DNA from: Planctomycetaceae bacterium
Lineage (GTDB): Bacteria > Planctomycetota > Planctomycetia > Planctomycetales > Planctomycetaceae
DNA: 32,500 nucleotides
Assembly: GCA_024742875.1 (NCBI GenBank)
Contig: JANSXP010000024.1
Location: forward strand, 1 to 32,500
Reading direction: 5' to 3'
Shown here: piece after piece, positions 14,241 through 31,458 of the stretch
Layout of the letters: each line of letters begins with the position of its first letter
Position numbering within the stretch: the stretch's first letter is position 1
The notes under the pieces: generated by a model
The model's input: only the letters and a program-made list of their open reading frames with translations
Databases searched by the model: none
What the model was told of the DNA's origin: nothing
Program-made: the position numbers and the translations under genes

Positions 14241-17200
14241 TTATTGGCTGTTTTCCGACCAGTCTGTGACAGTCGAATCGTCCCGGGGCGTTGATTGGGT
14301 GCCAAAATACCAGAACATGCCCGGGCGAATAAGAAACTCGGCGAGCGTGGACGTGGCCAGCCCGCCCAGAATGACGGTGGCGACCGGAAACAGGATTTCC
14401 CGCCCAGGCAGGTGACCGCCCCAGACCAGCGGGACCAGTCCCAGGCCGGTGGTGAGCGCGGTCATGAGAACGGGCGCCACGCGATCCAGACTGCCATCAA
14501 TGATGACGTCCGGATGTCGGCCGTTGACACGGACTCCGTGCAGATACGTTTCCATCAGCAGAATTCCGTTCCGCGCTGCGATGCCGCCCAAAGAAATGAA
14601 ACCCACCATGCTGGCCACAGATGGCGTCTGCCCGGTCAGGAACAGTCCGGCCACTCCACCCACAAAGGCGATCGGCAGGGCGATCAGGATCTGCAGCACC
14701 AGATTCCACGAATGAAACGTGGAGAACAGCACGACAAAGACGCCCCCAATAGCCACGGTACTGAACAGCAGCAGTCGCGCGGTGGCGGCCGCCTCTTCTT
14801 CAAACTGCCCGCTGTAAACCACCGAATACCCTTCCGGCAGTCGAATGTCGGCATCAATGCGACTGCGAATCGCAGCGACGGCTGACTTCAGGTCGCGGCC
14901 ACGCGTGTTCACACGCACGACGATGCGCCGTCGTGCGTCTTCACGCTTGACCTTGTTGGGGCCTTCAGCACGTTTGATCCGGGCCAGCGTCGACAGCGGC
15001 ACACGGGCGCCATCCGGCAGTTCAATGGGCGTGCGGTCCAGGGAGTCCAGGTCGCTGCGGAACTCCTCGTCGAATCGGACCAGCAGGTCAAAGCTTCTCT
15101 GCCGATCAAGCACGGACGAGACCACGCGGCCATTCAGGGCGGTTTCCACCATTTCGTGAATGTAAGCCGCCGAGATGCCGTAGGTCGCCAGCTGCTCGCG
15201 CTTCAGTTCGATCTGAATCTGCGGAATGTAGGTGATCTGCTCCACAATCGGCGGCGCCAGACCGTCAATTTGTTCGACCACGCGCTGAATGTCTCTCGCC
15301 GTCTTTTCCAGTTCCTTCAGGTCATCGCCAAACACCTTGATAGCGATCTCGGCCGTGACTCCGGACAGCATATGGCTGATCAAATGAAAGATGGGCTGTT
15401 CGACTTCCGATTCCACTCCTTTGAGTTCACTGACGGCCTCTTCCAGGCGTTCGATCACCTGTGTTCGCGACAGGCCGCTGTCCGGGTTGAGGGACATGAC
15501 ATACTCTGTTGTGTTCACGCCCATCACGTGTTCATCGTTTTCGGCACGTCCTGTTTTGCTCGTGAACCACAGCAGCGGCCCATCAGGATTGTCGTCTGTT
15601 CGCAGCAGCCTGCGAAACTCAGCGTCAGCGCGGGCCCGTTCCTGGCTGGATGCCTCCAGCGAAGCGCCCGGGGGCAAAAACAGGTTCACCTGAGCGGCCC
15701 CCTCGTCAAACGAGGGAATGAACCGACGGCCCATGCGCAGCAGCGTCACCCCCGCGATCACCACGGACAGGAATGCGATCGTCGAAACCAGCGTCAGTCC
15801 CGAACGGCTGAGGCTGAACCGCAGCAGCGGTCGGATGGCGGCCTTCACACCTTTTAGAAAAATTCCGTCCTGTCGGCTGGCCGTCGCACGCTGTCCCAGC
15901 AGGTAATAGCTCAGGACAGGAGTCACGGTCAGTGAGACTACGGTGGAGGCGATAATGGAAACGACATAGGCGATACCGAGCGGGGCAAACAGGCGCCCCC
16001 CCATACCCGAAAGCGTGAACAGTGGGGCAAAGACGAGCACGACCATCACCGTGCTCATCAGGATTGCGCCGCGGACTTCGCTGCTGGCATCGAAGATCAC
16101 ACGCACAGCCGACAGCGGGCTGTTTAACTGACGATTTTCACGCAGGCGTCGGAAGATGTTTTCGACGTCCACAATCGCATCGTCGACCAGCTCTCCCAGT
16201 GCGATTGCAATGCCGCCGAGCGTCATCACGTTGATGGACAGGTCCAGCCACTGGAAGATCAGTGCGGTGGTCAGCACAGACAGCGGAATTGCGGTGAGCG
16301 TAATGATGGTTGTCCGAAAATTCAGCAGAAACAGAAACAGGACAATCACCACCAGCACGGCTCCGTCGCGGACTGCGTCAACCACGTTGTTCACGCTGTA
16401 GTCGATGAACTCCCGCTGCTGATAGGTCGCTTCAATGCGAACGTCGTCCGGCAGCGAGGCCTGCAGTTCCCTGAGCGCGGCATTGATTTGATCGGTCATC
16501 GCACGGGTGTCGGTCCCCGGCTGTTTCTGAACGGTGATGACAACGCCTGGGTTTCCGTTGATAGCGCTGTCACCTCGTTTCACGGCGGCCTGCTGAGAAA
16601 CGGTGGCCACGTCACGCACCAGCACGGGGCGTTCGGAACGATGATCAATGACTACCGACTCGATGTCCTGCACCGTCTGCACCCGACCGATGCCCCGTAC
16701 CAGCAGTTCCCGGGAACCCTGATTGACGTATCCTCCGGAGACGTTGAGATTGCCATCACGCAGCGCGGTCTCCACATCGTGCAGTGTCACTTCGTAGCGG
16801 TGCAGCGCGTGCGGATCCACCTGCACCTGATACTGCATGCGGCCGCCGCCCATGGTGATGACTTCCGCAACGCCCTGAATGCGCAGCAGCCGCGGTCGCA
16901 CGACCCAGTCTCCCAGTGTCCTCAGCTGCAGTGCGTCTGTTTCGTTGGTTTCACTCCACATGCCAACCAGCATGATCTGGCCAAGCAGCGAGGAGATCGG
17001 TCCCATCCGTGGTCGGACTCCCGGTGGCAGACTGTTCAGTGTGGCGGCGATTCGTTCGCTGACGATCTGCCGGGCGACGTAGACATCCTGACCCCAGTCA
17101 AAGTCGACATAAATGACGCTCAGTCCGATGTCCGAAGTGCTGCGCACAGACGTGACACCGCTGGCACCGTTGACGGCCGCCTCAATGGGAAACGTGACGA

Positions 17201-17390
17201 GCGTCTCGACTTCTTCGGGGGCCAGCCCTGGGCATTCGGTGATCAGCACCACGCGTGGACGGGTTAGATCCGGCAGTACGTCAATCGGCAGCTGGGTGGC
17301 CTGCATGGATCCATAGGCCATCAGGCCGACTGCCACTGCCAGGACGGCCAGGCGGTTGTTTAGCGCGGTGCGGATAATGAGATTCAGCAT
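14241..17390 (-). CDS. Heavy-metal-type RND efflux pump, CusA/CzcA family
   Basis: 1049 residues, the normal length for this family. The N-terminal TM with 'QATQLPIDVLPDLTRPRV', the porter motif 'EEVETLVTFPIEAAVNG', and paired 12-TM architecture (TM blocks at about 340-520 and 860-1030) are all present. The TM4 proton-relay motif reads GELVDDAIVDVEN (Glu400, Asp403, Asp404, Asp408, Glu410). The conserved Asp of CusA-like pumps corresponds to Asp403, but this version carries more acids than the E. coli motif as I remember it. The pump is driven by the proton gradient and exports metal ions or related substrates from periplasm or cytoplasm via the MFP and outer-membrane channel. Copper/silver versus zinc/cobalt specificity cannot be assigned. 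It lies 124 nt after the MFP gene. Confidence 0.92.
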   Translation of the reverse strand: MLNLIIRTALNNRLAVLAVAVGLMAYGSMQATQLPIDVLPDLTRPRVVLITECPGLAPEEVETLVTFPIEAAVNGASGVTSVRSTSDIGLSVIYVDFDWGQDVYVARQIVSERIAATLNSLPPGVRPRMGPISSLLGQIMLVGMWSETNETDALQLRTLGDWVVRPRLLRIQGVAEVITMGGGRMQYQVQVDPHALHRYEVTLHDVETALRDGNLNVSGGYVNQGSRELLVRGIGRVQTVQDIESVVIDHRSERPVLVRDVATVSQQAAVKRGDSAINGNPGVVITVQKQPGTDTRAMTDQINAALRELQASLPDDVRIEATYQQREFIDYSVNNVVDAVRDGAVLVVIVLFLFLLNFRTTIITLTAIPLSVLTTALIFQWLDLSINVMTLGGIAIALGELVDDAIVDVENIFRRLRENRQLNSPLSAVRVIFDASSEVRGAILMSTVMVVLVFAPLFTLSGMGGRLFAPLGIAYVVSIIASTVVSLTVTPVLSYYLLGQRATASRQDGIFLKGVKAAIRPLLRFSLSRSGLTLVSTIAFLSVVIAGVTLLRMGRRFIPSFDEGAAQVNLFLPPGASLEASSQERARADAEFRRLLRTDDNPDGPLLWFTSKTGRAENDEHVMGVNTTEYVMSLNPDSGLSRTQVIERLEEAVSELKGVESEVEQPIFHLISHMLSGVTAEIAIKVFGDDLKELEKTARDIQRVVEQIDGLAPPIVEQITYIPQIQIELKREQLATYGISAAYIHEMVETALNGRVVSSVLDRQRSFDLLVRFDEEFRSDLDSLDRTPIELPDGARVPLSTLARIKRAEGPNKVKREDARRRIVVRVNTRGRDLKSAVAAIRSRIDADIRLPEGYSVVYSGQFEEEAAATARLLLFSTVAIGGVFVVLFSTFHSWNLVLQILIALPIAFVGGVAGLFLTGQTPSVASMVGFISLGGIAARNGILLMETYLHGVRVNGRHPDVIIDGSLDRVAPVLMTALTTGLGLVPLVWGGHLPGREILFPVATVILGGLATSTLAEFLIRPGMFWYFGTQSTPRDDSTVTDWSENSQ

Positions 17391-29948: not shown

Positions 29949-30718
29949 GCGTGAGGCGAATCGGTCCAGCACTGCTGTGGTTGTGTGTACTGGCAGGCTG
30001 TGGACAGAAGCCGGATTCTGAGACGATTAGTCGGCTGGCGGCCGCTGATGCGGCGTTTCATCAGGCCCAATCCGATGAAGAATTCATCCAGGTGGCTGCC
30101 CGCTACCAGGAAGTGCTGGACACGGAATTTGTGACCGCACAGATCCTTTACAATCAGGCGAACGCGTGGGCCCGCGGCAACGAGAACGGGCGGGCCATCG
30201 CCGCCTATCTGCGGGCGCAGCAGCTGAATCCTCGCGATGAAAAACTGGCCGCCAATCTGCAACTGGTGCGCAATCGAATTGGGCAGTCGGCTGCTGGTGC
30301 TGGTGGATCTTCACTGACAGAGACACTGCTCGTTCTGAACACGTTTTTGAGTGCCGCGGAGCTGAGCATTCTGACCAGCGCTGCCCTTGCGGCTGCTCTG
30401 CTCTGCTCTGTGTGGCAGACGGTCAGCGGACGCCGACAGTCTTTACGACTGTGTTTCTTTCTGTGGGCGACGTTTGTTCTGTTGGCCGCATCCGTGAGCT
30501 ATCACTGGTATCAGCAAAGAACACCATCGGCCGTTGTCGTTTCGCCGGCCATGGCCTTTCAGGGACCTTCGGAAACATACGACAGCGCCTTCGAGCAGGA
30601 ACTTCAGGCCGGCTTGGAATGCGTCGTCCTGGGCACGCAGGGGGAATGGTGCAACGTGTCGATCCCCGGCGCGGGCGAGGCGTGGCTGCCGCAAAGGGAA
30701 CTACAGATCATCCGCTGA
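29945..30718 (+). CDS. batE: BatE-like lipoprotein: TPR, two TM segments and SH3-like domain
   Basis: 257 residues from ATG 29945 (ATGA overlap). The start is chosen because it gives a proper lipobox, LAGC (Cys19), after a short basic n-region; the frame is open further up inside the BatD gene. TPR units cover about 30-110 ('AARYQEVLDTEFVTAQILYNQANAWARGNENGRAIAAYLRAQQLNP'). Two hydrophobic segments (about 127-158 and 166-187) are followed by a C-terminal SH3-like domain (about 195-257: 'AVVVSPAMAFQGPSETYDSAFEQELQAG...WCNVSIPGAGEAWLP'). This order matches BatE. It is the last gene of the operon; the hairpin at 30747-30773 is close behind. Confidence 0.88.
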   Translation: MSVRRIGPALLWLCVLAGCGQKPDSETISRLAAADAAFHQAQSDEEFIQVAARYQEVLDTEFVTAQILYNQANAWARGNENGRAIAAYLRAQQLNPRDEKLAANLQLVRNRIGQSAAGAGGSSLTETLLVLNTFLSAAELSILTSAALAAALLCSVWQTVSGRRQSLRLCFFLWATFVLLAASVSYHWYQQRTPSAVVVSPAMAFQGPSETYDSAFEQELQAGLECVVLGTQGEWCNVSIPGAGEAWLPQRELQIIR

Positions 30719-30739
30719 GTTTGCGAGCGGACGGGAACA

Positions 30740-30773
30740 AAAAAAGGGCCAGTCACCCCTGGTGACTGGCCCT
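30740..30773 (-). terminator. Intrinsic terminator of the minus-strand HMA gene
   Basis: GGGCCAGTCACC (30747-30758) pairs with GGTGACTGGCCC (30762-30773) as a perfect 12-bp stem with a 3-nt loop. On the plus strand seven A residues (30740-30746) precede it, so on the minus strand the hairpin is followed by seven T residues. It is therefore an intrinsic terminator for minus-strand transcription. It starts 24 nt after the TAA of the HMA gene, which is strong evidence that an expressed gene ends there. It may also stop the convergent Bat operon. Confidence 0.92.
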
Positions 30774-30796
30774 GACGATATCTGCAGCAAGTTTGC

Positions 30797-31144
30797 TTAA
30801 CTGCCGGAGAGCTTCTCAGTCTGTTCAGCGGGAAAACCGCATTTCTCCAGAGCGTCGACCGCTTCATCGACGTCAAATTTGGAAGCATCACCATTCACTA
30901 CCACTGTCATTGCATCAGCATCAATGTCGAGATTCGCTACACCCGGTAGCGATTGCAGGGTCGATGTGACCGTTGCACGGCATCCAGCTCAATGCATGGA
31001 AGGGCATGAAAATTTGACAAGTGCAGCAACGTTACCCATGGTCTCAGAAGACCCTGGGCCTGTTGCTGCGTTTCCGCCTGCAGGTGGTTCCGCACATCCG
31101 ACGGCCACACCAGCAACCAGGCACAGCATAAACTTGCGCATCAT
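30797..31144 (-). CDS. Heavy-metal-associated (HMA) lipoprotein with in-frame TGA in the metal motif; candidate selenoprotein
   Basis: Read on the minus strand from ATG 31144 (AGGA 5 nt upstream; ATG 31141 also possible) to TAA at 30797-30799, the frame spans 115 codons with one internal TGA (codon 52, 30989-30991). The N-terminus MMRKFMLCLVAGVAVGC is a lipoprotein signal with lipobox AVGC. After a Gly/Ala/Pro linker comes an HMA domain: 'VAALVKFSCPSMH-TGA-AGCRATV', 'LQSLPGVANLDIDADAMTVVV', 'DEAVDALEKCGFPAE'. HMA proteins bind soft metals through MxCxxC; here the TGA replaces the first Cys and the second is kept. An intrinsic terminator lies 24 nt downstream. Sec insertion would give MHUAGC; otherwise the gene is broken by a TGC-to-TGA change. 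No Sec machinery gene is in the window. Confidence 0.72.
30934..30981 (-). promoter_or_regulatory. Candidate SECIS-like stem-loops downstream of the TGA
   Basis: Three possible hairpins follow the TGA on the minus strand. (a) GCCGT, loop GCA, ACGGT (30981 down to 30969; loop 12 nt after TGA). (b) TGCA plus GGTC, loop ACATC, GACC plus TGCA (30977 to 30954; loop 21 nt after TGA). (c) TCGCTAC, loop CGGGT, GTAGCGA, a perfect 7-bp stem (30952 to 30934; loop 43 nt after TGA). Bacterial SECIS elements usually place a G-containing loop roughly 16-37 nt after the TGA. None fits every rule: (b) has the distance but no loop G; (c) has the G-rich loop but is far; (a) is near. Confidence 0.35.
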
Positions 31145-31458
31145 TTGGTTCCTGTAGGAAAGTCCATAAGATTAGACCAACATTGGTCTGGCTATATCAT
31201 CGGATTCTGGTTGATTGCTGCCAGTGGATTTTCCGTGGTTTTTGGATCATTGGGTTCATTTCTCCTCAAGTACTGGGCAATTTCGTCCTTTCCTGCAGGT
31301 CAGGCACGAGTCTTGTGTGGCTGTGTGTCGCTGGCCCACTTGCTCAGTCGGCACCGTTGCGCAGGTGTTATGACCGTGTGATTGATGGTGTTTGCCATGA
31401 CCGCAGATCCAAATCTCCTGATCTTTGCACGTTTGATTGAGCTTGTTTCCTGATCGGA
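31145..31458. promoter_or_regulatory. Divergent intergenic region with 16-bp palindrome
   Basis: 314 nt between the minus-strand HMA gene and the plus-strand small membrane protein. AGACCAA (31174-31180) and TTGGTCT (31183-31189) form a palindrome with a 2-nt centre, 30-45 nt upstream of the HMA start, a good place for an operator in its promoter. TAATCT on the minus strand (31174-31169) could be a -10 box touching it, though no convincing -35 is visible. The region looks richer in A/T than its surroundings. No gene is seen in it. Confidence 0.4.

Follow-up and report, generated by a model that had tools for sequence, protein, structure and literature searches.

A candidate selenocysteine-containing HMA lipoprotein, encoded through an in-frame UGA, in Planctomycetaceae and other Planctomycetota

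Introduction

Selenoproteins of the heavy-metal-associated (HMA) type have already been predicted, namely NF041115 (UxxU, where U is selenocysteine, Sec) and NF045683 (MerT_CopZ_Se) in NCBIfam, and PMC13188914 lists predicted UxxU and UxxC metal selenoproteins. NF041115 (UxxU_metal_bind, "metal-binding (seleno)protein") corresponds there to a putative mercuric reductase with a UxxU site. Selenoproteins of planctomycetes have been reported in PMC4807772, the main text of which, as distinct from its supplementary list (S9 Table), contains neither "HMA" nor "heavy metal". Here we analyze a gene on a 32,500-nucleotide stretch of a Planctomycetaceae bacterium (contig JANSXP010000024.1 of assembly GCA_024742875.1, positions 1 to 32,500; "the window"), in which TGA takes the place of the first metal-site cysteine of an HMA lipoprotein. 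A first-pass annotation made from the sequence had suggested a Sec-containing protein with a UxxC site and left open whether any HMA selenoprotein had been described. Predicted ones do exist (NF041115, MerT_CopZ_Se, and a cation ATPase with UxxC), while the present lipoprotein family was not found among them. We conclude, with a probability of roughly 85%, that the gene is functional and encodes a selenoprotein, with UGA decoded as Sec to give a lipid-anchored HMA protein, probably one that binds soft metals. This reading is supported by the frame, the position of the TGA, the Sec machinery of the genome, conservation, a hairpin downstream of the UGA and the predicted fold.

Results

The gene and its reading frame

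The frame lies on the minus strand (31144-30797) and reads MMRKFMLCLVAGVAVGCAEPP...VKFSCPSMH-TGA-AGC...KLSGS-TAA, the sole interruption being the TGA at 30991-30989. It would encode a putative HMA selenoprotein lipoprotein of 115 residues (30797-31144) with Sec at position 52, starting at 31144 or 31141 (the alignments of the closest relatives begin at Met2) and ending with TAA at 30799-30797. The order of parts, all on the minus strand, is a Shine-Dalgarno-like AGGA (31150-31153; 5 or 8 nt ahead of the two candidate ATGs, read by eye), a lipoprotein signal, a linker, a single HMA domain (residues 47-104, 30833-31006), the TAA and an intrinsic terminator with a 13-bp stem, a loop of 3 and a T run (30745-30773). 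The signal carries the lipobox AVGC (31094-31105) with the predicted lipidated Cys17; VAVGC occupies residues 13-17, and its Gly-Cys is invariant across the 10 rows of the relatives' alignment (A1), the lipobox being judged by eye. Codon 52 (30989-30991), at the same codon position in relatives, is the putative Sec codon and corresponds to the first metal-site Cys of MxCxxC, and TGC at 30980-30982 encodes Cys55, the second ligand of the resulting UxxC motif. Upon re-reading the sequence we thus located every element that the first-pass annotation had listed (ribosome-binding site and lipobox by eye, the HMA domain by Pfam), including the single TGA, and its expectation that callers of open reading frames (ORFs) would miss the gene held, since the plain listing of window ORFs of ≥80 aa has no entry for it. 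TGA is also a usual stop here, terminating 10 of the 18 long ORFs of the window, which makes a genome-wide reassignment of UGA unlikely.

TGA at the same HMA cysteine in relatives

An initial search covered 58 related genomes and matched 26 of them, with TGA at the identical codon among the best matches. A profile search of 170 genomes of the same family (E ≤ 1e-9) then gave matches in 63, and all 38 TGA-flagged match rows were read. In 35 of these, representing 35 loci of 34 genomes (the window's included), the TGA is the first HMA Cys, while the other three (G129, G116, G105) have it upstream of the motif or outside it. The spacing in the 35 loci is UxxC in 27, UxxxC in four and UxxxU in four. 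Of 392 genomes sampled across the phylum, 56 gave a match (E ≤ 1e-11). Rows with TGA numbered 19, namely the window, G116, where the TGA is outside the motif, and 17 more, which were fetched together with one Cys neighbor. In each of the 17 the first Cys is TGA, and they come from eight other families, with three UxxC, ten UxxxC and four UxxxU sites. Hence, wherever TGA falls within the motif it is the first Cys (52/52), the second is TGA as well in eight cases, and the second alone in none. The matched stretches of the relatives contain no further stop except the second TGA, on the second Cys, of the UxxxU forms, so that the accumulation of stops raised by the first-pass annotation as a sign of decay is not seen there, and the alignment of TGA with the Cys codon of homologues that it sought is found. 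From these matches the lipoprotein family appears to span at least nine planctomycete families. In a tree of 42 HMA cores (63 columns) the Sec forms lie to one side of a weakly supported branch.

Two further observations concern Cys copies and CxxxC sites. In G546 the HMA lipoprotein occurs twice on one strand, once as a UxxC form and once as a Cys form, with about 270 bp between the two (L165 and L158). Several HMA proteins, most of them with a lipobox, have a CxxxC site (L065, L066, L071, L089 on contig C40 of the window's genome, L090, L092, and L093), and like the UxxxC forms they have one residue more between the ligands than the usual CxxC.

Selenocysteine machinery and co-occurrence with selA

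The genome of the window (G000; 8.18 Mb, 168 contigs, 98% complete) contains a tRNA-Sec (77.8 bits, anticodon TCA) together with SelA (485 bits), SelB (335 bits), and SelD (256 bits), each above its family cut-off, so that the presence of selA, selB, selC, and selD, which the first-pass annotation took as a check on its Sec candidate, is established for all four, and the candidate gains support both from this machinery and from the recurrent TGA at the same HMA Cys. The same searches in 14 control genomes gave results above cut-off for tRNA-Sec in five, SelB in two, SelD in two and SelA in one. The SelD protein carries an oxidoreductase domain fused to its N terminus (L177, 2588-4765, minus strand), and its gene lies directly beside selA; the fusion scores 355 bits with TIGR03169 and 255 bits with the selD model, both above cut-off, and stays under the cut-off of the "fusion_not_SelD" model. 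The Sec system also appears to be in use, because among 37 matches to the AhpC-TSA family in this genome six have an in-frame TGA and all six place it, by eye, at the position of the active-site Cys (contexts TGGU, TUPVC, WUPFC, WUFC, GUPRC, and TUPPF). These are six further putative selenoproteins of thioredoxin fold (on contigs C42, C57, C22, C20, C13, and C77 of G000; L168, L169, and L172-L175), of which the protein on C77 has the deiodinase-like motif TUPPF.

Within the family, 71 of the 170 genomes have a selA match (E ≤ 1e-40; above cut-off in 70), and selA is present in all 34 genomes with the TGA form (hypergeometric 3e-16, relatedness ignored). The six family genomes whose Cys form was read (G014, G059, G028, G184, G020, and G183) are not among the 71, and three genomes (G000, G003, and G065) carry a Cys copy alongside the TGA form. 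In the phylum sample, selA was found in 16 of 17 TGA genomes compared with seven of 17 genomes with a TGA-free match, 14 of which were read and are all Cys forms.

Constraint and a hairpin after the UGA

The ratio of nonsynonymous to synonymous change (pN/pS) past the UGA ranges from 0 to 0.75 in 18 chosen pairs and is below 0.4 in 13 of them, which indicates from the sequence comparison that this part is under purifying selection. Resampling of synonymous codons (500 resample sets) was used to test for RNA structure beyond that imposed by the protein sequence, with 34 of the 35 family loci usable for folding, as one runs into a contig edge. At +12 to +42 after the UGA, the mean folding energy is -11.4 vs -4.6 kcal/mol in controls for the UxxC group (n=12, window included), -12.4 vs -6.3 kcal/mol for the UxxxC/U group (n=8), and -10.3 vs -6.8 kcal/mol for the g71-like UxxC group (n=14), and in each of the three Sec groups the observed mean was reached by none of the 500 sets. 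The eight Cys homologues have -4.0 vs -3.7 kcal/mol (P 0.30) in the same interval. The Sec groups have no excess upstream (-42 to -12) or at +60 to +90. At +30 to +60 the first Sec group is low as well (-9.7 vs -6.3), an interval that shares stem bases, and the Cys homologues are slightly low at +30 to +60 (P 0.06) and at +60 to +90 (P 0.05).

In the window itself, the candidate selenocysteine insertion sequence (SECIS) is a hairpin at 30954-30977 (minus strand), with stem segments 30977-30974/30957-30954 and 30971-30968/30962-30959 and the loop ACAUC at 30967-30963, and its energy at +12 to +42 is -8.6 kcal/mol compared with a control mean of -3.4 (P=0.020). The bacterial SECIS model as given in PMC13188914 has a loop of 3-9 nt, a stem of 4-16 bp, a distance of 16-37 nt from the UGA and a G in the first two loop positions; the window hairpin fits the distance and the loop size. 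A scan built on this G rule, which admitted hairpins with a loop of 3-12 nt, a start 15-30 nt past the UGA and an energy ≤ -3 kcal/mol, gave hits in 28 of 34 Sec forms vs two of eight Cys forms. An Rfam scan of 30700-31250 at E ≤ 1 found no SECIS, and its single match, over the terminator, is far under the gathering score. The search for a SECIS proposed by the first-pass annotation therefore gives a divided answer, in that a hairpin exceeding the synonymous controls stands at the right distance, whereas neither Rfam nor the G-rule scan found one in the window. At three loci of the phylum sample (L150, L153, and L164) the hairpin has GGTCTGCAC in common with the E. coli fdhF element. We propose that the hairpin directly downstream would assist SelB and tRNA-Sec in reading the UGA of codon 52 as Sec.

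Members with two UGAs

Eight HMA proteins, four of the family (L044, L047, L049, and L063) and four of the wider phylum (L151, L156, L157, and L163), have a UxxxU site with two TGAs 12 nt apart. In the three of the window's genus (L044, L047, and L049) the hairpin is a 9-bp stem to which the second UGA supplies the first three bases. For a UxxxU member, AlphaFold2 again gives the beta-alpha-beta-beta-alpha order (predicted local distance difference test, pLDDT, 83-92 from residue 41), with one residue more between the ligands, the modeled stretch stopping before the last strand. These members pose a decoding problem, namely two Sec codons 12 nt apart and one hairpin.

Fold and proposed function

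The Pfam HMA domain PF00403 matches across the TGA when Cys is substituted for U (E 7.1e-16, 58.8 bits vs a gathering cut-off of 24.8). AlphaFold2 gives a beta-alpha-beta-beta-alpha-beta fold at modest confidence (mean pLDDT 68, about 75-86 in the HMA part), and the top solved structures in Foldseek are MerP (the best, 1osd), Atx1 and other HMA domains, CopZ among them. We propose that the product would be exported and anchored by a lipid at Cys17, displaying one HMA domain whose metal site would be U52-x-x-C55 in place of C-x-x-C. Soft metal ions such as Cu(I), Hg(II), or Ag(I) would be bound outside the inner membrane and then sequestered or passed on, with the selenolate serving as the entry ligand for the metal. 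A selenolate is more nucleophilic than a thiolate and is deprotonated at lower pH. The capture or transfer of soft metals outside the inner membrane is the most likely function that we infer, as suggested by the fold together with the MxUxxC site and the signal for lipidation; Sec insertion, lipidation, the identity of the metal, and a transfer partner are parts of the same proposal, deduced rather than observed.

Gene neighborhood

An operon, or a setting of the mer or cop type, was considered for 20 loci and rejected, what recurs being synteny of the same genus or of near relatives, ORFs that run antisense to the gene, and three protein families that recur near the gene in 4-5 of the 20 loci at scattered distances. 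A heavy-metal efflux pump of the resistance-nodulation-division type (CusA/CzcA family; 790 bits vs a cut-off of 701) is encoded in the window at 14241-17390 (minus strand), about 13 kb from the gene, and the same genome has a transporter with its own HMA domain (299.8 bits vs the SO_0444 cut-off of 300). At one locus (L111, G096:C592) a convergent ORF some 1.1 kb away from the TGA gene, by eye CopZ-like/MerT-like, is the only neighbor hinting at metal transport.

Discussion

Several results weigh against our reading of the locus. The tRNA-Sec match alone is unspecific, five of the 14 control genomes being above cut-off. One TGA-bearing genome (G439, a 480-contig draft, 91% complete; TGA form L155 at G439:C100:9886-10104) gave no selA match, and is either missing the contig or a true exception. 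Two of the three pairs that include the window gene have the highest pN/pS of the 18 (0.71 and 0.75; the third is 0.36). As to the hairpin, the interval +12 to +42 was selected after earlier folds of whole stretches had been viewed, and the related sequences are not independent. Folding of whole stretches gave no clear separation of Sec from Cys forms (mean z -0.88 vs -0.87 at +0 to +42 and -0.85 vs -0.41 at +0 to +54). TGA-anchored RNAalifold against a relatedness-keeping null was significant for group 3 only (P 0.027; 13 pairs, 97% paired), groups 1 and 2 having P 0.40 and 0.68, and since low P values occur elsewhere too (group 2 at +54 to +108, group 3 at -54 to 0) we give this result little weight. 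The loop of the window hairpin, ACAUC, has no G in its first two positions, and the window sequence is, with five others, one of the Sec forms for which the G-rule scan gave no hairpin. Metal binding is read from the HMA domain alone, and the comparison of 20 loci found no neighbor at a conserved position that points to a metal pathway, so that the gene context does not name the metal.

The main rival to the function of a metal carrier accepts Sec at the UGA and places a redox protein on the HMA fold, either a UxxC selenol/thiol oxidoreductase or a lipoprotein reactive with peroxide or organometals. In its favor are the extra cysteines near the motif in the closest group of the window, where Cys47 (31004-31006, minus strand; five before the Sec) and Cys102 (30839-30841, minus strand; before GF) are invariant in all four UxxC members and could possibly be extra ligands or the partner in a selenylsulfide or disulfide. 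However, the domain is an HMA domain that matches the structures of MerP, Atx1, and CopZ, the Met ahead of the motif is kept, the UxxxU forms retain two soft ligands, and the 20 loci have no redox partner gene alongside at a conserved position; we thus consider a redox role unlikely. Far less probable is regulation by a programmed stop, in which translation would end at the UGA with a short lipopeptide and a near-cognate tRNA would now and then read through. UGA does terminate 10 of the 18 long ORFs of the window, but such regulation does not require selA or selB, whereas selA was found in 50 of the 51 genomes with the TGA form, and the presence of most of the HMA domain after the UGA, with its hairpin and coding constraint, would be left unexplained. 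The main alternatives of the first-pass annotation, a TGC-to-TGA nonsense mutation or a base-call error, would need a single base change in a Cys-encoding HMA lipoprotein gene, in a draft assembly of 168 contigs. They are ruled out by the same TGA at the same codon in 34 genomes of the family (counting that of the window) and in 17 others across the phylum, with purifying selection and a selected hairpin past it.

On a wider reading, Planctomycetota would hold widespread selenium-based metal carriers outside the inner membrane, some with Sec as both ligands (UxxxU) and with two UGAs decoded via one hairpin, a generalization to which we give even odds. A conserved family with Sec as the likely metal ligand offers a natural test of what selenium contributes to metal handling. 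Tallies of planctomycete selenoproteins are probably too low, because a plain ORF listing misses the gene.

Comparison with known systems

NF041115 resembles the window protein in having a single HMA-like domain with predicted Sec for a metal-site Cys, and the two align over 66 residues. The match of 28.6 bits does not reach the cut-off of 95, nor do those of 14 other family members (26-48 bits, 0/14), and the NF041115 model has 74 positions whereas the planctomycete lipoproteins have an N-terminal extension and space their ligands as UxxC, UxxxC, or UxxxU. MerT_CopZ_Se (NF045683, a MerT/CopZ fusion-like heavy metal transport selenoprotein) shares the HMA-type domain and the predicted Sec, but its model has 235 positions and the window protein matches the C-terminal part only (28.2 bits vs a cut-off of 375). 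The cation-transporting ATPase E1-E2 (TIGR01525), a predicted selenoprotein listed in PMC13188914, likewise handles metals with Sec in UxxC, although it is a multi-domain protein and the window protein is a free lipoprotein. MerP (TIGR02052; PDB 1osd and 1afi), the best fold match, likewise consists of one HMA domain outside the cytoplasm, with an MxCxxC site. The score of the window protein is 38.7 bits, under the equivalog cut-off of 92.55, and unlike MerP this protein has a predicted lipid anchor, Sec for Cys, and no mer operon at a conserved position in the 20 loci. A planctomycete HMA selenoprotein was not found in the openly available main-text passages searched. As far as searched, what is new relative to these systems is a lipoprotein family present in at least nine planctomycete families, with UxxxC sites and with UxxxU members that carry two UGAs.
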